Assembly: GCF_019977735.1 (NCBI RefSeq)
Contig: NZ_AP025018.1
Location: 1 to 64,000 of the forward strand
Length of the DNA stretch: 64,000 nt
From: Calothrix sp. PCC 7716
GTDB taxonomy: Bacteria; Cyanobacteriota; Cyanobacteriia; Cyanobacteriales; Nostocaceae
Reading direction: 5' to 3'
Shown here one piece after another: positions 19,851-30,110 of this stretch; the first letter of the stretch is position 1; each line of letters begins with the position of its first letter. Below the pieces are notes generated by a model. The model searched no databases, was not told the origin of the DNA, and saw nothing but the letters and a program-made list of their open reading frames with translations. The position numbers and the translations under genes are program-made.

Positions 19851-20350
19851 AAATTACTCCATAAAAATTGATAGCAGACAAGCGAAATTCTAAAAACATA
19901 TAACTTATTTATCGTTACTGCTCTGAAAACTTTTCGTTTGAATATATTTCATGTTGTATTAAATAACAACGTGTAATATCTCTACCAATAGTTTAAGTTT
20001 TAAATTTTGCTTATATTTCTTGAGATAAGTAAATCTAGTTGTATTTATCTCATGAACCCCAAACGGCTTACTACAAATACATTTTTGATTGCATTACTTT
20101 TTTATTATAACTTTCAAATAGCTAAATGTGATACCAAATTATATTAAAATAGTAGACATAAGTAATCATTAAAAGCTTAAAGAATTAAAATTCTTATTAC
20201 AAACATTTTTGCTGCCTCTAGCACAAGATAGAGATTGTTGTGCAATAATCAAATCTAAAGTAATAAATTTTCAAGAAGTTTTCTTTGCTCTTCAGATAGA
20301 AGCTAATCAAGAAGCTACTGGCTATAATTGCTAAATATTAAATTAATTTT
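19851..20350. other. 500-base AT-rich spacer, no clear gene
   Basis: The only open frame with a reasonable start is a 31-codon one at about 20052 (MNPKRLTTNTFLIALLFY), which looks like the beginning of a secreted or membrane protein and then stops. It may be a remnant. No RNA gene or strong terminator was found. Confidence 0.5.
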
Positions 20351-22069
20351 ATGAGTTCTTTAATTGAATTTGCCCAAACAGCAGAAAATATTGCAGCGAC
20401 ATCAAAGCGAACGATAAAAGCTTTAATACTTGGTGATTACTTCAATAATCTGGCAGATGAAGATTTAATAACTTCCGCGCGCTTTTTTGCTGGTTATATT
20501 TTTCCGTTACGTGACCAACGTACAGTCAATATTGGTGGAGCAGCTTTACTAACAGCGATTACAACTATTGCGAATATAGAAAAATCTAAATATCAAGAGC
20601 GTTTAGTTAAACTGGGAGACCCTGGAGATGTCGTATTTGAAGTTTTGAGCAATAATCTTAAATCTAAGCAACTTCCATCTACTCTTACCTTACATCACTT
20701 ATTCTCTAAACTCGAACAACTAGCTGCGCTCTTCGGAACTAAAAGTAAAACTTCGCTAGTTACTGAATTATTAAGACTTGCGACTCCCCTCGAAGCGAAG
20801 TATATCGTTAAACTTTTAGCAGGTGATTTGCGAATTGGATTAAAAGAGGGAGCAGTTGAAGATGCTCTTGCTCGTTTGTTCAAAGTCCCAGTTGCGAAAG
20901 TGCAATGGGTGAATATGTTAACTGGTGATATTGGGGAAACCGCTATCCTTGCTCGTCATCAACGACTTGAGCAAGCAAAAATGCGACTTTTTCATCCCAT
21001 CAAGTTTATGCTTGCTAGTCCTGCAGATGATTTAACCGAAGTTACAAAGCAAATGCCACAGGGGTTTGCGGTCGAAGATAAGTATGATGGCATTCGCACA
21101 CAAGTGCATATCGGAGGGGGAAAGGGGGAAGATAGTTTGCATGGAACTATTATTAATGATTGCCGTGTAGCTTTATTTTCACGAACTTTAGATGAAATCA
21201 CATGGACATTTCGCGATTTAATTGAACCGCTCGCGCAACTTATAAGCGACGATACTGACAATGGTTTAATTTTAGATGGAGAGATAATACCAATTCGAGG
21301 CGCCAAGATATTGCCTTTCCAGGAACTCCAAAAACGACTTGGACGTAAGCAGGTTAAACAAGAGTTAATAGAAGAAGTACCTGTAGCATTTATTGCCTAT
21401 GATATTTTATACGCGAATAATAGAGTATTAATTGATGAACCTCTAAAAGAGCGTAGAACTATATTAGATTCGCTACGGTTAGATACAGAAAAAATAAAAC
21501 GAGGACTTCATAAACAATTTGACGATATTTCTGGTTTAGACGCCGAATTTACAGCAGCGCGCGCAAGAGGTAACGAAGGATTAATGGTTAAAGACCTTAA
21601 TTCAACATACAAACCAGGTCGTCGTGGTAAAGAATGGCTAAAAATCAAACGTGCTATTGCCACACTCGATGTTGTAATTACCGCAGCAGAAGTAGGAACT
21701 GGGAAACGCGCACGGTTTTTATCAGATTATACGTTTGCTGTTCGTACTAGCGAAACTGAACCGACATTATTAAATATTGGTAAAGCTTACTCTGGACTAA
21801 CCGATGCTGAAGTCACAGAAATTAGTAATTGGTGTCGCGCGCATACAATACAGGAATTAGAACATGGTCGAGTTTGTATAGTCGAACCAAAGTTAGTATT
21901 AGAAGTTACTTTCGACCGAGTACAACCATCATCGCGTCACAATAGCGGTTTTGCGTTGCGGTTCCCTCGAATTTTGCGAATACGTACAGATAAACCTGTT
22001 GCAGAAATTGATACTTTAGAAACAGTACAAAGTTTAGCTGAAACAGAAGACTTGCCATCATGCACGTGA
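20351..22069 (+). CDS. ATP-dependent DNA ligase, archaeal/LigB type
   Basis: The 572-residue enzyme seals nicks using ATP. The N-terminal ~220 residues form the DNA-binding domain (VAKVQWVNMLTGDIGETA at its end). The nucleotidyltransferase core has the adenylated lysine in EDKYDGIRTQ, 'LDGEIIP', 'EGLMVKDLNSTYKPGRRGKEWLKIKRA', and then an OB-fold. Most bacteria rely on the NAD-dependent ligase, so this is an additional ligase. The reading frame ends in a junction with a DHH-phosphoesterase remnant; the last residues (ETEDLPSCT) may not be original. Confidence 0.92.
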   Translation: MSSLIEFAQTAENIAATSKRTIKALILGDYFNNLADEDLITSARFFAGYIFPLRDQRTVNIGGAALLTAITTIANIEKSKYQERLVKLGDPGDVVFEVLSNNLKSKQLPSTLTLHHLFSKLEQLAALFGTKSKTSLVTELLRLATPLEAKYIVKLLAGDLRIGLKEGAVEDALARLFKVPVAKVQWVNMLTGDIGETAILARHQRLEQAKMRLFHPIKFMLASPADDLTEVTKQMPQGFAVEDKYDGIRTQVHIGGGKGEDSLHGTIINDCRVALFSRTLDEITWTFRDLIEPLAQLISDDTDNGLILDGEIIPIRGAKILPFQELQKRLGRKQVKQELIEEVPVAFIAYDILYANNRVLIDEPLKERRTILDSLRLDTEKIKRGLHKQFDDISGLDAEFTAARARGNEGLMVKDLNSTYKPGRRGKEWLKIKRAIATLDVVITAAEVGTGKRARFLSDYTFAVRTSETEPTLLNIGKAYSGLTDAEVTEISNWCRAHTIQELEHGRVCIVEPKLVLEVTFDRVQPSSRHNSGFALRFPRILRIRTDKPVAEIDTLETVQSLAETEDLPSCT

Positions 22070-22429
22070 ACAAGTAAAACTCGAAATGGAAAAGCTAGAA
22101 AAGCGGCGCCTACTTTTGCTGGTAACGTTGCTTTAATTAGAATTAACTCACCATGTCAAATTCATCCTCTCATAGCTCAAAGTTGGCGCCAGCGATTACC
22201 AAAATATATTGTAATTGTGGCAAACGAAGGATATTTAACAGGTAAAGTCAACTTTAGTGCCAGAACTGACTCCGGAATAAACGTACTAGATTTTCTACGC
22301 AACGTTGGTTTACCAGAAGGAGAAGGAAGTTATGGACATGGACATGATTTTGCTTCCGGAGGCAGTTTACCAATCGCGCGGTTCAATGAATTATTAGATA
22401 AATTAGGTTTTGATGTGGGTTTACGATAA
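22055..22429 (+). pseudogene. Remnant of a DHH/DHHA1 phosphoesterase gene fused to the ligase 3' end
   Basis: Directly after and partly overlapping the ligase stop, one frame reads AREQVKLEMEKLEKRR. After a frame change, a second reads 'GNVALIRINSPCQIHPLIAQ', then 'YLTGKVNFSARTDSGINVLDFLRN' and 'GEGSYGHGHDFASGGSLPIARFNELLDKLGF'. The last part is the DHHA1 domain of DHH-family phosphoesterases, including the GHGHD-ASGG motif. The N-terminal DHH catalytic part is missing. A GTG at 22217 could allow translation of the last 70 residues, but the gene is clearly truncated. A ligase-DHH pair was probably collapsed by deletion. Confidence 0.8.
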
Positions 22430-22794
22430 TATTGCGTTCCATTGATTACGGGTTTTGTTATAATAAAACCTACTGGTTCATCTTTATGCTCATAGCTTAA
22501 AAATTACGCATGGTGAAACTCGATATTTGTAGCTTTAGCAGTTACAGCTTTATCTTGAGAATGCGACAGCATACGTTTTGAGACATTAACCGCATTATAT
22601 GGCGCCTGCTTTTTTAACTTGAATTATGTTGATTATTGGTGCCGTAGTTAATTTTTACTATTTTTTAATAAGTCAAGCACTGTTAAGCACTGTCAAGCAC
22701 TGTCAAGCACTGTCAAGCACTGAAGTGCTTACTACGGGTTCCCTTTCCCCTCTACAATAAAAAGCTGATAAGTAAAGCGAGATACTGTAATATT
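22430..22794. repeat. Spacer with 10-bp TCAAGCACTG tandem repeat
   Basis: No gene is seen. A short hairpin 'ggttttgttataataaaacc' (about 22451-22470) may end transcription of the ligase region. Five units of TCAAGCACTG (one variant TTAAGCACTG) run from about 22672 to 22722, followed by 'aagtgctt', which can fold back on the repeat. Confidence 0.75.
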
Positions 22795-24270
22795 ATGACT
22801 ACTGCTACTCCTGTTAAAACAGAGTACGAGGCGATTATTGGGCTTGAAACCCATTGTCAGCTTAGTACCAACACTAAAATATTCTCTGATAGTTCGACTG
22901 CGTTCGGCGCCGACCCCAACACCAACATCGACCCGGTTTGTATGGGTTTACCTGGAGTGTTACCTGTACTTAACCAAAAAGTTCTGGAATATGCTGTCAA
23001 AGCAGGTTTAGCGCTCAATTGCCAAATCGCAAAATATAGTAAGTTTGACCGTAAGCAGTACTTTTATCCTGATTTACCCAAAAATTACCAAATATCGCAG
23101 TACGATTTACCTATTGCTGAACATGGTTGGTTAGAAATCGAGTTAATCGATAAAGATGGTAATCCTGTTCGTAAGAAAATTGGTGTGACCCGTCTACACA
23201 TGGAAGAAGATGCAGGTAAGTTAGTTCACGCAGGTAGTGACAGGTTATCTGGTTCGACTTACTCACTTGTAGATTACAACCGTGCAGGTGTTCCATTAGT
23301 GGAAATAGTATCCGAACCTGACTTACGCTCTGGACAAGAAGCTGCTGAATACGCGCAAGAACTACGTCGAATTATGCGCTATCTTGGTGTTAGCGACGGC
23401 AACATGCAAGAAGGTTCGCTACGCTGTGACGTTAATATATCTGTTCGTCCAGTTGGACAAAAAGAATTTGGCACTAAAGTCGAAATCAAAAACATGAACT
23501 CGTTCAGCGCAATTCAAAAAGCAATCGAGCATGAAATTGAACGACAAATAGCTGCTGTCGAAGCTGGTGAACCTATTATTCAAGAAACCCGTTTGTGGGA
23601 AGAAAGTTCACAACGTACTATTAGCATGCGTAAAAAGGAAGGTTCTAGCGATTATCGCTACTTCCCTGAACCTGATTTAGGACCCATTGAAGTTAGCAGC
23701 GAACAATTAAATGCTTGGAAAAGCGAGTTACCCGAACTCCCCGCTCAAAAGCGTCATCGCTACGAAACCGATTTGGGACTTTCTGCATATGATGCGCGTG
23801 TTCTTACCGAAGAACGTACTGTTTCTGAATATTTTGAAACGGTTATTGCTACTGGCGCCAGTGCCAAAGCTGCGGCAAACTGGATTACACAAGATATAGC
23901 AGCTTATCTCAACAAACAAAAACTCGCTATCACCGAAATTGGTTTAACTCCGCAAAACCTAGCGGATGTTATTACGCGCATTGAGAGTGGTAAAATTAGC
24001 AACGCTATAGCAAAAGAAAAGTTAACCGATTTACTCAACGGTGTAACCCCCGAAAAAGCTTTCGCAGGCAAAGAACTCATTAGCGACCCTGCTACTCTCG
24101 AATCTATTATCGACGAAGTTATCGCCGCTAACCCCAAAGAATACGAAAAGTACAAAGGTGGTAACGTCAATCTCAAAGGTTTCTTCGTTGGACAAGTCCT
24201 CAAAAAAACCAACAAACTCGCTGAACCCCGTCTCACCAACGAATTGGTCGAGAAAAAGCTAAACGCTTAA
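22795..24270 (+). CDS. gatB: Aspartyl/glutamyl-tRNA amidotransferase subunit B
   Basis: GatB activates Glu-tRNA(Gln) or Asp-tRNA(Asn) for amidation within GatCAB. The protein has 491 residues, full length. Signatures are 'GLETHCQLSTNTKIFSDSS', 'CMGLPGVLPVLN', 'KFDRKQYFYPDLPKNYQISQYD', 'LHMEEDAGKLVH', 'SLVDYNRAGVPLVEIVSEPD' and 'MQEGSLRCDVNISVRP', plus the C-terminal tRNA-binding YqeY-like tail (KYKGGNVNLKGFFVGQVLK). No gatA or gatC is nearby, which is usual in cyanobacteria. It is followed by the tandem small-RNA array. Confidence 0.97.
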   Translation: MTTATPVKTEYEAIIGLETHCQLSTNTKIFSDSSTAFGADPNTNIDPVCMGLPGVLPVLNQKVLEYAVKAGLALNCQIAKYSKFDRKQYFYPDLPKNYQISQYDLPIAEHGWLEIELIDKDGNPVRKKIGVTRLHMEEDAGKLVHAGSDRLSGSTYSLVDYNRAGVPLVEIVSEPDLRSGQEAAEYAQELRRIMRYLGVSDGNMQEGSLRCDVNISVRPVGQKEFGTKVEIKNMNSFSAIQKAIEHEIERQIAAVEAGEPIIQETRLWEESSQRTISMRKKEGSSDYRYFPEPDLGPIEVSSEQLNAWKSELPELPAQKRHRYETDLGLSAYDARVLTEERTVSEYFETVIATGASAKAAANWITQDIAAYLNKQKLAITEIGLTPQNLADVITRIESGKISNAIAKEKLTDLLNGVTPEKAFAGKELISDPATLESIIDEVIAANPKEYEKYKGGNVNLKGFFVGQVLKKTNKLAEPRLTNELVEKKLNA

Positions 24271-24365
24271 ACGGCGCCTTAAATATTTCTTCATCAAAAA
24301 TTTACAAAAAAACATCGAATAGGGGGTAGCGCACCCCATATCTATAATGATATTGTGCGCTAAGT

Positions 24366-24416
24366 AGATGCACCCTGATGATTCGGAGAGTTATGTAAAT
24401 AGCTCTCCTTTTTTTT
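24366..24416 (+). ncRNA. Putative small RNA, copy 1 of tandem array
   Basis: The unit starts with the conserved head AGATGCACCCTGATGATTCG, then the hairpin GGAGAG...CTCTCC and eight T. Upstream lies 'agggggtagcgcacc', with a -10-like TATTGT at 24351-24356 in register with the other copies. A perfect TATAAT is at 24343-24348, so this copy could start slightly earlier. The predicted transcript is about 50 nt. The family is not recognised. Confidence 0.72.
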
Positions 24417-24558
24417 GTCTATTTATAAATATAAATAATCCCCCAAAATTCGCAATTTTAGATAGGTTCGGCACCTTAATGCTGAGTAATATTACTGTTA
24501 ATTGGCGCCTTAAAAATTTTCTTAACGCTTTATTCGGAAAAAATACTTACAGGGGGTA

Positions 24559-24586
24559 TTGCACCTCATCCCAAATATGCTATACT
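24559..24586 (+). promoter_or_regulatory. Sigma70-type promoter of small-RNA copy 2
   Basis: TTGCAC (24559-24564), a 16-base spacer and TATACT (24581-24586) are followed by the conserved RNA head ten bases later. Equivalent elements stand at the same distance before copies 1, 3 and 4 (for example TTACCC-16-TATATT at 24740-24767). This supports independent transcription of each unit. Confidence 0.7.
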
Positions 24587-24595
24587 ATGTTAAGT

Positions 24596-24643
24596 AGATG
24601 CACCCTGATGATTCGGAGAGTTACGTAAGTGACTCTCTTTTTT
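24596..24643 (+). ncRNA. Putative small RNA, copy 2 of tandem array
   Basis: The head is identical to copy 1. The terminator stem is GAGAGT / ACTCTC with loop TACGTAAGTG, followed by six T. The best promoter of the four precedes it (TTGCAC-16-TATACT). It begins 230 bases after copy 1. Confidence 0.75.
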
Positions 24644-24776
24644 ATTGCATTAGTAATAGTACTAAAGAACTACCTTGTAATCGATTTTAACTTTATGAAT
24701 TTATCATATTAACTTCATACAAAATTAAATTAAGGGGTCTTACCCATCATCCCGAATATGGTATATTATGTTAAGT

Positions 24777-24827
24777 AGATGCACCCTGATGATTCGGAGA
24801 GTTACGCAAGTGGCTCTCTTTTTTTTT
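24777..24827 (+). ncRNA. Putative small RNA, copy 3 of tandem array
   Basis: The head is identical to copies 1 and 2. The stem is GAGAGT / GCTCTC (one G-U pair) with loop TACGCAAGTG, then nine T. The promoter-like TTACCC-16-TATATT lies immediately upstream. It begins 181 bases after copy 2. Confidence 0.75.
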
Positions 24828-24938
24828 GTTTGTTTTTCTGTTGTATACTAGATAACAATTACACAGAAATTAATAAAATTTTTCAAAATAAAATGGGGGG
24901 TAATGCACGGCATCCCCAAAATAGTGTATTATGTTATC

Positions 24939-24989
24939 AGATGCACCCTGATGATCTGGAGAGCTGCTGAAGTAGCTCTCTCTTTTTTT
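24939..24989 (+). ncRNA. Putative small RNA, copy 4 of tandem array
   Basis: This is the most diverged copy: AGATGCACCCTGATGATCTG, then a longer perfect stem GAGAGCT / AGCTCTC and a T-rich tail. Changes in the stem relative to the other copies are matched on both arms, so the hairpin is conserved rather than the primary sequence. It begins 162 bases after copy 3 and ends about 120 bases before argJ. Confidence 0.72.
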
Positions 24990-25111
24990 CCACATAAAGC
25001 ATTTTTACTCACATTTATATATAGTTAGTTGCTGGTTATTTAACAAAATAGCATTAAGTGGTGACACTATATTGATATAATCGCCAGTCAGTCATAATTG
25101 CGGGTAAGGTC

Positions 25112-26425
25112 ATGGCAGACTGGCATGAAATAGATGGTGGAGTTACGGCGCCTAGAGGATATCGGGCAGCGGGAATAAAAGCTGGGTTAAAACCTTCGGG
25201 GTTGCCAGATTTAGCGTTGATAGTATCGGATGTAGATGCGATAGCAGCAGGAGTATTTACAACGAGTCACGTGAAGGCAGCATGTGTAGATTATTGTCGT
25301 GAGCGGTTGCAAAGTAAACAAATAACCCGTGCGGTTCTTTGTAATGCGGGACAAGCGAATGCAGCAACAGGTGAACAAGGAATGCGCGATGCACTCGAAA
25401 GTGCAGAACTTTTGGCTAGTGCATTAAATATTTCTTCAGAATCAATATTATTGGCATCAACGGGTGTGATAGGGCAGCGTATCAAAATGGATGCGATGCG
25501 AAGCGGAATTCCTAAAGTTGTTGCGGCACTTTCGGGAACTGGTTCTGATGCGGCAGCAGGAGCAATTATAACTACCGATTTAGTGCCAAAAACAATTGCA
25601 TTAGAGACAACTATTGGTGATAGGACAGTACGAATAGGTGGAATAGCTAAAGGTTCAGGGATGATTCATCCTAACATGGCAACATTGCTGGCATTTGTAA
25701 CGTGTGATGCGGCTGTTTCACCCCATTTATGGCATCAAATGCTTTCGCGTGCTGCCGATAAAAGTTTCAATGCCATAACTGTAGATGGTGATACTAGCAC
25801 CAATGATAGTTTAATTGCCCTTGCTAATGGTGAATCGCGAACTCCTGCAATTACAGAAATGGGCGCCGAGGCAGAAAAGTTAGAAGCGATGTTAACGGCA
25901 GTGTGCCAGCATTTAGCTAAATGTATTGCTCGTGATGGAGAGGGTGCAACTTGCTTGATAGAAGTACAAGTAGAAGGGGCGCCGGATGATGCAGGGGCAC
26001 GTCAAGTAGCAAAAACAATAGTAGGTTCATCGCTAGTAAAATCAGCAATATTTGGGCATGACCCAAACTGGGGAAGAATAGCAGCAGCAGCAGGACGCGC
26101 GGGAGTTGTATTTGAACAAGAAAATTTGCGTATTCAACTTGGTGATTTTTTACTAATGGAAAATGGGCAGCCATTACCATTTGACCGTTCGGGTGCAAGT
26201 AATTATTTAAAATACATTGCTGCGAATTCAAGTATAAACAGCGATTTTACAGCAACCAACATGAGCAACGACCTTACAGTTGACCGTAGCACCGTGGCGC
26301 CGCAACGAGTGGATAACCCAGTGATAATTAAAGTCAGCATTGGTAACGGACACGGTTCGGGTATAGCTTGGGGTTGTGACTTGAGTTACGACTACGTGAA
26401 AATTAATGCCGAGTACACAACTTAA
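25112..26425 (+). CDS. argJ: Bifunctional ornithine acetyltransferase / N-acetylglutamate synthase
   Basis: ArgJ recycles the acetyl group in arginine biosynthesis. The 437-residue protein includes the autocleavage site KGSGMIHPNMATLLAF, where the Thr after MA becomes the N-terminal nucleophile of the beta chain. 'FNAITVDGDTSTNDS' and 'FGHDPNWGRIAAAAGRAG' are also typical. A ~20-residue linker near residue 385 (SINSDFTATNMSNDLTVDRS) looks like a lineage-specific insertion. It follows the tandem RNA array, so readthrough from copy 4 into argJ is possible. Confidence 0.96.
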   Translation: MADWHEIDGGVTAPRGYRAAGIKAGLKPSGLPDLALIVSDVDAIAAGVFTTSHVKAACVDYCRERLQSKQITRAVLCNAGQANAATGEQGMRDALESAELLASALNISSESILLASTGVIGQRIKMDAMRSGIPKVVAALSGTGSDAAAGAIITTDLVPKTIALETTIGDRTVRIGGIAKGSGMIHPNMATLLAFVTCDAAVSPHLWHQMLSRAADKSFNAITVDGDTSTNDSLIALANGESRTPAITEMGAEAEKLEAMLTAVCQHLAKCIARDGEGATCLIEVQVEGAPDDAGARQVAKTIVGSSLVKSAIFGHDPNWGRIAAAAGRAGVVFEQENLRIQLGDFLLMENGQPLPFDRSGASNYLKYIAANSSINSDFTATNMSNDLTVDRSTVAPQRVDNPVIIKVSIGNGHGSGIAWGCDLSYDYVKINAEYTT

Positions 26426-26452
26426 CGTAAGGTGGGCACTGCCCACCCTACT
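26426..26452. repeat. GGTGGGCANTGCCCACC hairpin repeat
   Basis: 'gtaaggtgggcactgcccac' directly follows argJ and forms a perfect hairpin between convergent genes. Other copies are at about 13924-13948, 40452-40477, 44702-44722 and 45774-45795, always just beyond a gene end. They may act as bidirectional terminators or be repeats that settled there. Confidence 0.75.
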
Positions 26453-26457
26453 GTGAT

Positions 26458-27270
26458 TTAAATACAGCGGCGATATATTTTTTCAACTTTATCTATATAT
26501 TTATAACTACTTTCATAGGGTGAAAAGCGTATAGATTCTTGTTTACCTAATACTAATATACCAAAATTATTTAAACTATCATAAAATAATTTATGAACAC
26601 GCGTTTGCAAAGTTTTGTTAAAATAGATTAAAACATTACGACAAATAATTAAATTAAATTCATTGAAAGAATTATCACTAGCTAAATTATGCAAAGAAAA
26701 AATAATATTATCACGTAAAGACGTATCAAATATTGCATCTTTGCCAGATACTAAATAATATTCAGAGAAAGACTTTTTACCGCCAGATTGGAGATAATTA
26801 TGTGTATATTCCTGCATGAATTTTAGAGGAAAAATACCTGTTTTAGCTTGACGCAATACTCTTTCGTTAATATCTGTTGCATAAAGACGACAACGATGAT
26901 ATAAACCTTCTTCTTGAAGTAAAATTGCCATCGAGTAAACTTCTTCACCAGTTGAACACCCAGCGTGCCAAATTCTGATAAACGGATAAGTTCGCAAGAT
27001 AGGTATTACTGAAGAGCGCAAAGCTAGAAAAAAACTAGGGTCGCGAAACATGGAGGTAACGTTGACTGACACGTTAAGCAAAAAACGTTCCATACACTCA
27101 CGGTCGTGTAAGACTTTATCTTGGAGTGCAGAAATCGTTTTTAGTCCTTCTATGCCAACAATATACGAAATTCTACGTGTAATTGAAACACGAGAATAAT
27201 CACGAAAATCAAAACCGTAGTAACGATATATTCCCTCTAGTAGTAAATCTACTTCAATATCTTCTAACAT
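26458..27270 (-). CDS. cheR: CheR-type protein-glutamate methyltransferase
   Basis: CheR methylates glutamates of chemoreceptors with SAM. The 270-residue protein has the short helical N-domain (LLEGIYRYYGFDFRDYSRVSITRRI) and the SAM-binding motif IRIWHAGCSTGEEVYSMAILL. 'LYATDINERVLRQAKTGIFPL' and 'FNLIICRNVLIYF' complete the family pattern. No receptor or CheB is adjacent; in cyanobacteria such CheR genes often work with hybrid kinases elsewhere. The upstream cysC gene lies 22 bases away in the same direction, so the two may be co-transcribed. Confidence 0.9.
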   Translation of the reverse strand: MLEDIEVDLLLEGIYRYYGFDFRDYSRVSITRRISYIVGIEGLKTISALQDKVLHDRECMERFLLNVSVNVTSMFRDPSFFLALRSSVIPILRTYPFIRIWHAGCSTGEEVYSMAILLQEEGLYHRCRLYATDINERVLRQAKTGIFPLKFMQEYTHNYLQSGGKKSFSEYYLVSGKDAIFDTSLRDNIIFSLHNLASDNSFNEFNLIICRNVLIYFNKTLQTRVHKLFYDSLNNFGILVLGKQESIRFSPYESSYKYIDKVEKIYRRCI

Positions 27271-27292
27271 GATTCATTAAGTATTAAAATTA

Positions 27293-27886
27293 TCAATTCA
27301 AAATAGCTTTTAAATTGTGAATTTTAAATCTTAAGCTGTGACTATCAATTAAAGGGAGGTAATATCCTAACTCTTCCATTTTTCTCAACACTTTACCTGC
27401 GCTTTCGGCTATTGTCTCTAGGTGTGTATTACAAGTCACTTCAGGAAAAAGAGGCGCCTCGTAAGGGTCATCAATACCAGTAAAGTTTTGAATTTCCCCT
27501 GAACGCGCTTTTTTATATAAACCCTTAACATCACGCTGTTCACACACTTCCAAAGGTGCATTTACATATACTTCTAAAAAATCTGCCGTGTCTAAACGCA
27601 TTTGATTGCGAATTTGACGGTAAGGTGAAATTACTGACACTAGTACAATTACATCATTGCGTGTAAGTAAATTCGCAACATAACCGATACGACGAACATT
27701 TTCATCGCGGTCTTCTCGACTATAACCTAGCCCTTTGGTTAAACACTGTCTTAGCATATCACCATCAAGAACTTCAATTTTATAGCCTTGAGAGCGTAAC
27801 TCATTTTCAACAACACGGCTAATGGTAGTTTTGCCAGCACCGCTCAATCCAGTAAACCACACTGTTAAACCTTTTTGCTCAATCAT
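27293..27886 (-). CDS. cysC: Adenylylsulfate (APS) kinase
   Basis: The kinase phosphorylates APS to PAPS in sulfate activation. The start at 27886 (MIEQKGLTVWFTG) matches family starts; a frame from 27913 adds nine residues. Walker A is GLSGAGKTT. 'LDGDMLRQCLTKGLGYSREDRDENVRRIGYVANLL' holds the APS-binding residues, and 'FTGIDDPYEAPLFPEV' is the lid motif. The C-terminal ~20 residues extend beyond the usual end. Confidence 0.94.
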   Translation of the reverse strand: MIEQKGLTVWFTGLSGAGKTTISRVVENELRSQGYKIEVLDGDMLRQCLTKGLGYSREDRDENVRRIGYVANLLTRNDVIVLVSVISPYRQIRNQMRLDTADFLEVYVNAPLEVCEQRDVKGLYKKARSGEIQNFTGIDDPYEAPLFPEVTCNTHLETIAESAGKVLRKMEELGYYLPLIDSHSLRFKIHNLKAILN

Positions 27887-28014
27887 TGCTTTTATAATAA
27901 ATTGACGTATCAAATTATTAACATATATTAAGCTTATACATCATCGTTCTTTCTCTAGATACGGTTGTATAAATAAATACCTCTATCGGGAGATAGATTT
28001 ATTAACTAAGTATG

Positions 28015-28064
28015 AAACTAAGAAACCGAGTTTCTTCATTACGTAGAAACCCGGTTTCTAGAAT
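28015..28064. repeat. Inverted pair of AGAAACC-GGTTTCT repeats
   Basis: 'aagaaaccgagtttctt' and 'agaaacccggtttct' stand side by side just after the carbonic anhydrase gene. Each is a near-palindrome. The family also occurs at about 1694-1762. Confidence 0.75.
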
Positions 28065-28065
28065 T

Positions 28066-28854
28066 TTAGTTAGATGAACCTCGGTAAATTCGGTCAACTT
28101 GCGATTGTGGAAGTCGCGTCATGGGGAATCCGTGAAGTCTATCAAAAACAACTTCTTGAGGTTCAGCAGGGGTTCTTGTGCCATTACCGTTTGAATCGCC
28201 ATTAATTGATATTTCATCATCTAGCGAAGGAACCAGACTTTGAGCTAAGACGTAAGAATGAGTTTCGGGGTCGTATGCTAAAACTTCTCCATCTTCAATA
28301 TTATAAATCCATGCGTAGATGCGAAGTTGATTGTGATAAAGCTTCGAGCGAACTACCGGATAAGTTCTCAAGTTTTCAATTTGAGTTAAAACATTTTCTG
28401 CGGTAATAATTTCGAGCAGTTCCTCTCCTTTATAGTGACTGTAATGTTCCTTTGCTAAAAGTCGGGTAGCTTCTGTATACTTCAACCAGTCATGCACAAG
28501 TGGCATTTCCTCATCTAAAGTATGGAGCTTTGTCAACCCTTTCATGGCGCCACAGTGTGAGTGACCACAAACAATAATTTGCCGAATACCCAGAGCTTGG
28601 ATGGCATATTCAATCGTGGCGCCTTCACCACCGTTAGTGGCGCCATAAGGTGGAATAATATTACCAGCATTGCGAATCACAAACAATTCGCCTAATTCAG
28701 CTTGCGTAATTAAGTTTGGGTCTACACGCGAATCTGAACAGGTAATGAATAATACCCTAGGTTTTTGACCATGAGAAAGCTGTTCAAAAAGTTGTTGATG
28801 GCTGCTGACATACGTAGACTTAAACTCGCGCAGCCCTTTAATTAATTTCTTCAT
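28066..28854 (-). CDS. ccaA: Beta-type carbonic anhydrase (carboxysomal CcaA/IcfA-like)
   Basis: The enzyme interconverts bicarbonate and CO2 for RuBisCO. Zinc ligands Cys39, His98 and Cys101 (FITCSDSR and VCGHSHCGAM) and the Asp41-Arg43 dyad are all present. The opening MKKLIKGLREFKSTYVSSHQQLF and 'QAELGELFVIRNAGNIIPPYG' match carboxysomal CcaA. The ~60-residue tail (ISINGDSNGNGTRTPAEPQEVVFDRLHGFP) corresponds to the C-terminal extension used for carboxysome targeting. The gene stands alone, unlinked to ccm genes. Confidence 0.92.
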   Translation of the reverse strand: MKKLIKGLREFKSTYVSSHQQLFEQLSHGQKPRVLFITCSDSRVDPNLITQAELGELFVIRNAGNIIPPYGATNGGEGATIEYAIQALGIRQIIVCGHSHCGAMKGLTKLHTLDEEMPLVHDWLKYTEATRLLAKEHYSHYKGEELLEIITAENVLTQIENLRTYPVVRSKLYHNQLRIYAWIYNIEDGEVLAYDPETHSYVLAQSLVPSLDDEISINGDSNGNGTRTPAEPQEVVFDRLHGFPMTRLPQSQVDRIYRGSSN

Positions 28855-28997
28855 TATAATTTACTATTGGCAGTCAGAGACATACAATTAATTTTCTCTC
28901 AAGTGGTTCACGTAGTACCTATGTGTTATTAATTTGTGAGCAAACGTTAAAGTACTAACTAAGTATAATTTAAATTTTTGTTAAGAAAGTTTATTAA

Positions 28998-30110
28998 TCA
29001 AGAATTTTTGTAACGGAGTAAACTTGAATCGATATCCTTTATACATGTACATCCACTTAAAGCCATTGCTAAATCAAACTCTGCACGCAACAGTTGAATA
29101 ACATGGGCAACACCCGCTTCACCGTTCAAAGCAAGTCCCCATAATATAGGTCTACCAATCAATACAGCATTAGCGCCATAAGCGATAGCTTTGAGTATAT
29201 CAATACCTCGACGAATACCACCATCAACAAGAACCTCAGCTTGATTATTAACTGCTGCTACAACATCGGGTAATGCTTCAATTGATGCAATTGCACTATC
29301 TAACTGGCGCCCGCCATGATTTGATACTATTATTGCTTTGGCGCCGCATTTTACTGCATTCACTGCATCATCCGCACGTAAGATACCTTTAACAACCAAA
29401 GGTAAGGGTGACAAAGATTGTAACCATTCTAAATCTTGCCAAGTAACTGCTGGGTTAAGTTGTTGAGCAAAATAAGCAAATAACCCAGATTCTTTAGAAT
29501 AATGAGGAATATCCAAACCGGACATGCTTGTTAAATTAGCCAAATGTAACCCGTCTGGTAAAGTGAACTCATTACGTTTATCGCGTTCGCGCTGTCCTAA
29601 CATAGGAGCATCAACAGTTAGACACAAAGCTTTATAACCTGCTGCAAACGCGCGTTCTACCAAAGCACGAGTTAAACCTTTATCTTTGTGAATATAAAGT
29701 TGAAACCAGTGCGAAGAATCATTATCCACTGTAGCGACTTCTTCGATGCTTTTAGTAGACATCGTACTGAGTATCATTCCTGTGCCTGTTAATGCTGCTG
29801 CCCTTGCCGTAGCAACTTCGCCATCCAGATGAGCAAGACATTGAAAAGCCATCGGAGCAATCAATATAGGCAACTGTAAAGTTTCTCCTAAAATAGTTAC
29901 GCTTAAATCACGCTTACTTACATCTACTAGCATTCGAGGTAATAACTTTATCCGCTCAAACGCTGCACGATTATCACGTAATGTTATCTCATCCCAGGCG
30001 CCGCTACTGTAATAATCAAACGCCATTTGAGATAGATGACCTTTCGCGCGCTGCTCGTATTCAAATAAATTAATTGGTAGCGAGTGAGGAGTATTAACAG
30101 TGTTAGTCAT
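28998..30110 (-). CDS. FMN-dependent alpha-hydroxy-acid oxidase (lactate/glycolate oxidase family)
   Basis: This 370-residue TIM-barrel flavoenzyme oxidises L-2-hydroxy acids. Family marks are 'LPRMLVDVSKRDLSVTILG', 'PILIAPMAFQCLAHLDGEVATARAA', 'WFQLYIHKDK' and the catalytic 'VSNHGGRQLDSA', with the phosphate site 'VLVDGGIRRGIDILKAIAYGANAVLIGRP'. In N2-fixing cyanobacteria such enzymes act mainly as lactate oxidases; sequence alone does not settle lactate against glycolate. It stands alone. Confidence 0.9.
   Translation of the reverse strand: MTNTVNTPHSLPINLFEYEQRAKGHLSQMAFDYYSSGAWDEITLRDNRAAFERIKLLPRMLVDVSKRDLSVTILGETLQLPILIAPMAFQCLAHLDGEVATARAAALTGTGMILSTMSTKSIEEVATVDNDSSHWFQLYIHKDKGLTRALVERAFAAGYKALCLTVDAPMLGQRERDKRNEFTLPDGLHLANLTSMSGLDIPHYSKESGLFAYFAQQLNPAVTWQDLEWLQSLSPLPLVVKGILRADDAVNAVKCGAKAIIVSNHGGRQLDSAIASIEALPDVVAAVNNQAEVLVDGGIRRGIDILKAIAYGANAVLIGRPILWGLALNGEAGVAHVIQLLRAEFDLAMALSGCTCIKDIDSSLLRYKNS

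Follow-up and report, generated by a model that had tools for sequence, protein, structure and literature searches.

What are the four short, closely similar units that stand between gatB and argJ in Calothrix sp. PCC 7716, and what could they act on? The window (the whole stretch of 64,000 nucleotides analysed here) carries gatB at 22795..24270 (+; PF02934 and PF02637) and argJ at 25112..26425 (+; PF01960), both named beforehand from the sequence and confirmed by Pfam. The 841-nt gap between them holds four units of about 52 nt in tandem, argJ starting 122 nt past the last one. The original prediction saw in them a multicopy regulatory RNA, with a serial attenuator for argJ as the alternative.

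The heads of the units start at 24366, 24596, 24777 and 24939, where they had been placed. A 25-nt head word is identical in copies 1 to 3 and differs at two positions in copy 4; it does not occur in shuffles of the window, and no copy of the head is expected by chance in 64 kb. Unit 1 occupies 24364..24416 (+; head (A)AGTAGATGCACCCTGATGATTC, hairpin 24385-24408), unit 2 24594..24645 (+; hairpin 24615-24638), unit 3 24775..24827 (+; hairpin 24796-24819) and unit 4, which is divergent, 24937..24989 (+; hairpin 24958-24981), each hairpin being followed by a T-run. Four intrinsic terminators were found in 24270-25120, against 0.6 expected, and all are the hairpins of the four units, as anticipated. 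Folded alone, each unit forms a terminator stem of 9 to 10 bp, with free energies of -16.0, -15.5, -15.0 and -19.0 kcal/mol for copies 1 to 4 and z-scores of -3.5, -3.3, -2.1 and -2.4. The head had been described as unpaired, and in copies 1 to 3 it indeed forms at most a weak helix; in copy 4, however, it is predicted to be partly paired (7 pairs).

Upstream of the units a block is conserved, made of GGGG-N5-C(C/A)C at the -35 position and then a -10-like hexamer. In copy 1, an operator resembling a HetR box, GGGG-TAGCG-CACC (24323..24335, +; one mismatch to GGG-N5-CCC), has its centre at 24329, 36 nt ahead of the T of TAGATG, and precedes the hexamer TATTGT (24351..24356, +). Copy 2 has GGGG-TATTG-CACC (24553..24565, +; one mismatch) and TATACT (24581..24586, +), and copy 3 GGGG-TCTTA-CCCA (24734..24746, +), the only box in the window with a strict GGG-N5-CCC, and TATATT (24762..24767, +), these hexamers being assigned by sequence. 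The operator of copy 4, GGGG-TAATG-CACG (24897..24909, +; two mismatches), is degenerate. A -35/-10-like pair at equal distance from each head had been proposed: the conserved block and its hexamer bear this out, but the block is more than such a pair, and in copy 4 its centre lies 35 rather than 36 nt before the head. A generic sigma-70 scan returned 5 promoter-like sites against 5.0 expected, none of the four unit promoters among them, and the latter are recognised by conservation only. Since a gap-free alignment of the 120-nt blocks of copies 1 to 3 reaches 73% from the promoter onward, promoter and unit were probably duplicated together.

Units of this kind are found well beyond the window. 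A pattern of head plus GAGAG stem, with up to 3 mismatches allowed anywhere, matched 106 of 291 genomes of the order (57 of 122 genera), and the reversed pattern none; among the matches listed, three had a mismatch in the first 15 bases. Conservation in relatives begins at TAGATG, a correction to the original description. The exact word AGATGCACCCTGA gave 156 distinct units, a sample partly fetched by box patterns and therefore not a frequency estimate: 81 have a GGG-N5-CCC box (class A, preceded by AAG in 40 of the 81), 45 have TCC(G/T)G, 30 have neither and none has both. A GAGAG-type stem is present in 75 of the 81 box units, in none of the 45 TCC(G/T)G units and in 26 of the 30 with neither (50/51, 0/43 and 26/30 when box-fetched loci are left out). 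Two promoter classes thus share the head, one NsiR1-like with the DIF1 motif, and that of the window with GGGGTNNNACCCC.

The compensated stem changes first noticed between the window copies extend to the class. In 41 aligned class-A units, double-sided changes occur at 7 of 10 stem pairs, with 29 covariation cells against 7.7 in shuffles (0/500); the invariance of head positions 2-15 in this alignment is mostly built in, the units having been chosen by their head. In five box units (L187, L207, L215, L218 and L224) the hairpin is wholly replaced and head and promoter are kept. A dispersed, non-transcribed repeat might be thought of, given the many copies per genome in some lineages, but the fixed spacing from box to head, the covarying terminators, the conservation across families and the outright replacement of hairpins beside a constant head and promoter make this reading extremely improbable.

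The position next to argJ bears on the attenuator. Among 41 cyanobacterial argJ loci scanned (L031-L069, L080 and L097, upstream DNA being short for some), 13 have class units at most 800 nt upstream of argJ and in the same orientation, all of them within the 17 loci L031-L047. They belong to Calothrix, Spirirestis, Tolypothrix, Rhizonema, Nodularia, Fischerella, Nostoc, Anabaena, Symploca, Symplocastrum and strain ESFC-1, the last three not known to make heterocysts. At L036 the unit lies 1.8 kb upstream, and L039, L043 and L044 showed no class unit upstream of argJ, within upstream DNA that is short for some loci. The recurrent arrangement in 13 of 17 loci would agree with a serial transcription attenuator or leader for argJ; yet every unit comes with a conserved promoter block and a terminator of its own, other genomes have units in many further locations, and at L063 and L069 related units are oriented away from argJ. 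With folding confined to single units, we consider an argJ attenuator very unlikely; the units are almost certainly small RNA genes.

Three sets of relatives may be described here. L063 and L069 are cyanobacterial MAGs, named Synechococcales and Pseudanabaenaceae, whose units have TTCCGG or TTCCTG promoters: one NsiR1-type unit upstream of argJ at L063:617 (-), and four at L069:96-920 (-), all four passing the Rfam NsiR1 cut-off. Two plasmids of Allocoleopsis franciscana PCC 7113 match window copy 3 (NC_019742.1:20330-20426 and NC_019741.1:26293-26350), with no listed gene under either match, the first preceding a helix-turn-helix regulator gene. Finally, two of three viral contigs with TAGATGCACCCTGATGA (L372:1640 (-) and L373:11006 (-)) show, by eye, a short hairpin and a run of T behind the head and lack a HetR box; these are possible phage-borne copies of the sRNA head, and a 17-mer may also arise by chance in such a collection.

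To which family do the units belong? The NsiR1 model (RF02399, cut-off 39) gave 33.3, 31.3 and 31.7 bits on copies 1 to 3 in cmscan, with the clearest match in the head, and 17.5 bits (E 3.7) on unit 4. Such weak matches alone mean little, since sub-cut-off matches also occur in 13 of 14 control genomes. Matches to rli52 (E 0.37) and sbrA (E 0.18) were taken as chance, NsiR1 being the only credible, if sub-threshold, family. Yfr1, Yfr2 and other cyanobacterial small RNAs also have a conserved unpaired motif, and some are multicopy; no such family matched at E<=1 in positions 20000-30000. Judged by their sequence, the four units are sub-threshold relatives of NsiR1. They share with it the 5' head UAGAUGCACCCUGAU (copy 4 has CAGATG), a length of about 50-60 nt, a terminator hairpin and a tandem array with one promoter and one terminator per copy. 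They differ from it in the GAGAG stem, the score below the Rfam cut-off, the HetR-type box in place of the DIF1 motif, the location between gatB and argJ rather than upstream of hetF, and the presence of their class also in genera not known to make heterocysts, Symploca and Symplocastrum. The original prediction had set the array apart from NsiR1, which is right for stem and promoter but wrong for the head, whose 14-15 nt are those of NsiR1. It had missed this identity, along with the HetR-type box and the way the family follows HetR through the class.

The same genome (12.37 Mb) has NsiR1 proper. The RF02399 model finds an eight-copy array at C1:301944-303152 (45.9-70.1 bits), divergent from hetF (NF045509, 1416 bits), the known place of NsiR1 (PMC9045159); an array of 12 repeats lies at hetF in Nodularia (PMC3610870). 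Five more matches over the cut-off, and weaker ones, lie outside the array. TCCGGA is the DIF1 motif of heterocyst promoters (PMC4192349, PMC9045159); searched as TCCGGA or TCCTGA, the latter an extension made in this analysis, it stands about 35 nt upstream of 8/8 copies in the hetF array and of 7 of the 11 dispersed matches shown, and is absent upstream of all four window copies. When the model was applied to 20 other loci, the matches over the cut-off included no unit with a GAGAG stem; L187 and L224, whose units have different stems, pass it (43.5 and 40.1 bits). Two weak matches, L029 and L030 (G000 C1:3914782 and 3907367), have a stretch of their own in common, TAGCTGCTTACCCTAAATAAATTCCCCACAATT..., and seem to be copies of a different hairpin element.

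The question then arises as to what binds the box. Its consensus in relatives, drawn by eye, is AGGGGTGACACCCCTCA. In 65 of the 81 box units (46 of 51 without the box-fetched loci) 36 nt separate its centre from the T of TAGATG; in 28 of the 81 a -10-like hexamer begins 14 nt upstream of the head, and 36 have no match to the motif used. The published HetR site at hetP is GAGGGGTCTAACCCCTC, and from crystal structures HetR requires GGGnnnnnCCC (PMC4192349). Like the sites of the HetR regulon (hetP, hetZ), the box of the window class is a GGGG-N5-CCCC inverted repeat, with AGGGGTNNNACCCCTC as at hetP; unlike them, it occupies the -35 position in the promoter of an sRNA, which would suit an activator replacing the -35 element or, equally, a repressor. 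The Calothrix genome also has a perfect GAGGGGTCGCACCCCTC, separated by about 0.9 kb, which includes a 144-aa ORF, from a HetP-family ORF downstream (NF037966, 118.7 bits). Among 74 hand-chosen genomes, the word GGGGTNNNACCCCTCA is present in 58 of 64 HetR-positive and 2 of 10 HetR-negative ones, with 224 matches (palindromic sites counted twice) against 15 for the reversed word. Elsewhere, in one genus, a HetR-type box lies between an alpha/beta hydrolase-like ORF and a 196-aa ORF (L231 and L232, box at 1500), and a similar hydrolase-like ORF flanks the box of L219 on one side; these boxes are possible further HetR targets.

In the lineage of the window, the box itself, by its sequence, is partly eroded. 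The box and unit pattern matched 12 of 29 genomes of the family, and the box of copy 3 is the one match of the Calothrix genome in the box-pattern searches. Three of the four window boxes are degenerate, and HetR control there may therefore be weaker.

How closely does the family follow HetR? With HetR-positive defined by a PF18460 match at E<=0.001, a sample of 242 genomes of the class has HetR in 122 and the 14-nt head TAGATGCACCCTGA in 127 (reversed control, 3 matches). The head is present in 122/122 HetR-positive and 5/120 HetR-negative genomes (G017, G296, G311, G378, which is 62% complete, and G455). Strict HetR-box units are found in 104 of the 122 and 2 of the 120, DIF1 units in 117 and 4, and both together in 101 of the HetR-positive genomes. 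In a sample of 291 genomes of the order, box and unit occur together in 106 of 164 HetR-positive genomes (one of which is below Pfam's cut-off) and 3 of 127 HetR-negative ones (G008, G199 and G258); 35 of the 164 have neither the unit nor the box and unit pattern, both patterns being stricter than the head alone. The two samples overlap and are not phylogenetically independent, so that Fisher p-values, which ignore phylogeny, overstate the evidence, and HetR and the sRNA could both merely mark filamentous lineages. A GAGAG-type unit persists in eleven HetR-negative genomes, which all belong to family f18; none of them has a box-pattern match, and no box was seen in their 11 promoters (L120-L130).

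Another factor of the same lineages, rather than HetR, could bind the GGGGTGACACCCC box. The degeneracy of three window boxes would fit this, as would the HetR ChIP-seq paper on Anabaena PCC 7120, whose text, including Table 1, has the hetR and hetP regions in its list of 26 and makes no mention of argJ or of any sRNA, NsiR1 included. However, motif and geometry are those of the published HetR site and of the box upstream of HetP in the Calothrix genome, co-occurrence with HetR is nearly complete, and family f18 lacks both the box and HetR and has the sRNA. We rate a factor other than HetR as rather unlikely, and retain HetR as the presumed regulator.

Which transcripts might the head pair with? 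We chose 80 hetR loci by hand across families and located the HetR start in 75 (not in L315, L335, L336, L339 and L340); 74 were analysed, L303 being dropped for too short upstream DNA, with the leader taken as -260..+10 and a control stretch as -1400..-1130. The commonest 6-mer of the leaders is GGGUGC (29/74, against 5/74 in the control stretch) and the commonest 7-mer AGGGUGC (21/74 against 1/74), which complements GCACCCU of the head. The best duplex between head and leader averages -17.87 kcal/mol, compared with -12.88 (sd 0.72) for shuffled heads, 0/60 being as good, and with -13.77 (sd 0.64) for dinucleotide-preserving shuffles (0/200). Pairing with the control stretch is unremarkable, 18/60 and 131/200 shuffles being as good. 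Taken locus by locus, no more than 5% of shuffles equal the head at 46 of 74 hetR loci, against 6 of 74 in the control. By family, p<=0.05 is reached in 12 of 20 for the leader and 0 of 20 for the control, the leader signal falling short in f5, f21, f23, f35, f48, f51, f56 and f57.

The position of the site varies by group (about -40, -66, -90 to -140 and -190 to -245) and its core is kept; most sites lie 40-245 nt ahead of the start codon, clear of the ribosome site, and some are bipartite, AGGGUGC...AUCUACUU, matching both halves of the head. In the Calothrix genome, UUCCGACUCGGGUGUAUACUACUUA, from -76 of hetR, is where copies 1 to 3 would pair, with -26.7 kcal/mol; the value is -20.8 for copy 4 and -19.6 kcal/mol for an NsiR1-type copy. 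These complementarities make the hetR 5' leader a candidate target. The idea of a regulatory RNA in several copies that pairs with mRNA through its CACCCU head thus gains support from the stem covariation and from the top k-mer of the hetR leaders. Its extension to ribosome sites in general gained little: perfect 13-nt complements of the head (TCAGGGTGCATCV) number 25 in 18 of 40 genomes, against 5 for the reversed control, without recurring at one gene except for the small ORF described below, and the 25 include at least one variant of the sRNA itself, L242.

Two other kinds of target were considered and set aside. A single universal perfect-match target is not apparent, no gene recurring in the 40 genomes save a small ORF shared by two genomes of the genus f10/g24 (L240:1285-1545 (-) and L241:1284-1547 (-)). 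There the perfect 13-nt complement TCAGGGTGCATCA stands just before an internal in-frame ATG (MVNVLWGSLPIIG.../MVKIFWGSLPIIG...), the longest form of the ORF beginning upstream; one of the two has a HetR-type box about 110 nt upstream. Neither ORF has an NCBIfam match, and the one searched against Pfam has none. The HetP family was rejected as the main target on its modest signal: over 30 HetP-family 5' regions the mean duplex is -13.79 kcal/mol against -11.75 for shuffles (0/60), with 11 of 30 loci at <=5%, and GGGUGC occurs in none of the 30.

An NsiR1-like sRNA with other targets, such as HetP-family genes or small secreted proteins, the hetR-leader complementarity then belonging to a different conserved DNA or RNA element, is a possible but distinctly less probable reading. 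The HetP-family regions do pair somewhat better than shuffles, NsiR1.4 represses the hetP-like gene alr3234 (PMC9045159), the small ORFs of the one genus have their perfect complement, and family f18 keeps the sRNA without HetR, so that hetR cannot be its only target. Against this, the hetR-leader signal is stronger than that of the HetP family, which lacks GGGUGC; a k-mer ranking blind to the sRNA puts the head's complement first; and some leader sites match both halves of the head.

We come back to a trans-acting sRNA under direct HetR control that would act on the hetR leader, a chain that, taken whole, we judge somewhat more probable than its negation. What the sequences offer for it are the units themselves, their covarying terminator, the co-occurrence with HetR, a HetR-type repeat at fixed distance and the recurrent complementarity of head and hetR leader. 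Each unit would be a gene for a trans-acting sRNA of about 50 nt of the NsiR1 seed family, in which a terminator hairpin follows an unchanging 5' head (UAGAUGCACCCUGA). HetR would bind the box and control the sRNA directly, and the sRNA would pair with the hetR leader and alter HetR output, closing a loop from HetR through the sRNA to hetR. Such a loop may predate heterocysts, NsiR1 proper, multicopy and with DIF1 promoters, being perhaps a parallel branch used in them. As to its sign, we lean slightly towards a positive loop, because overexpressed NsiR1, with the same head, raised HetR, an effect that its authors explain through hetF (PMC9045159), and because most leader sites are clear of the ribosome site; a negative loop comes close behind.

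Part of this picture has precedents. That an NsiR1-like RNA exists in a strain without heterocysts has been noted before: RNA162 of Limnospira indica PCC 8005, of 57 nt and with RNA-seq values, is already on record (PMC8400943). Its host is a non-heterocystous strain having hetR; the portion of that paper available describes no promoter class, HetR box or hetR-leader target for it. None of the available parts of PMC4734099, PMC3655545 and PMC11298460, the last of which reports a hetR deletion in Leptolyngbya BL0902, mentions two promoter classes, units with a HetR box, a class-wide association with HetR or complementarity to the hetR leader, nor are these visible in the literature searched, a collection that leaves most subscription journals outside; the head core, in three spellings, is likewise absent from that collection.

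At about even odds, in our estimate, an undescribed sRNA branch driven by a HetR box accompanies HetR through essentially all HetR-bearing cyanobacteria and acts on the hetR leader, in a circuit that would predate heterocysts and from or beside which NsiR1 would have arisen. If this is true, it gives a concrete and conserved output of HetR in filamentous species without heterocysts. A class of sRNA that follows HetR, carries its box and is complementary to the hetR leader would offer a direct and testable answer, an RNA-based autoregulatory circuit. NsiR1 would then be recast as one branch of an older family, with a second candidate route to HetR besides hetF.
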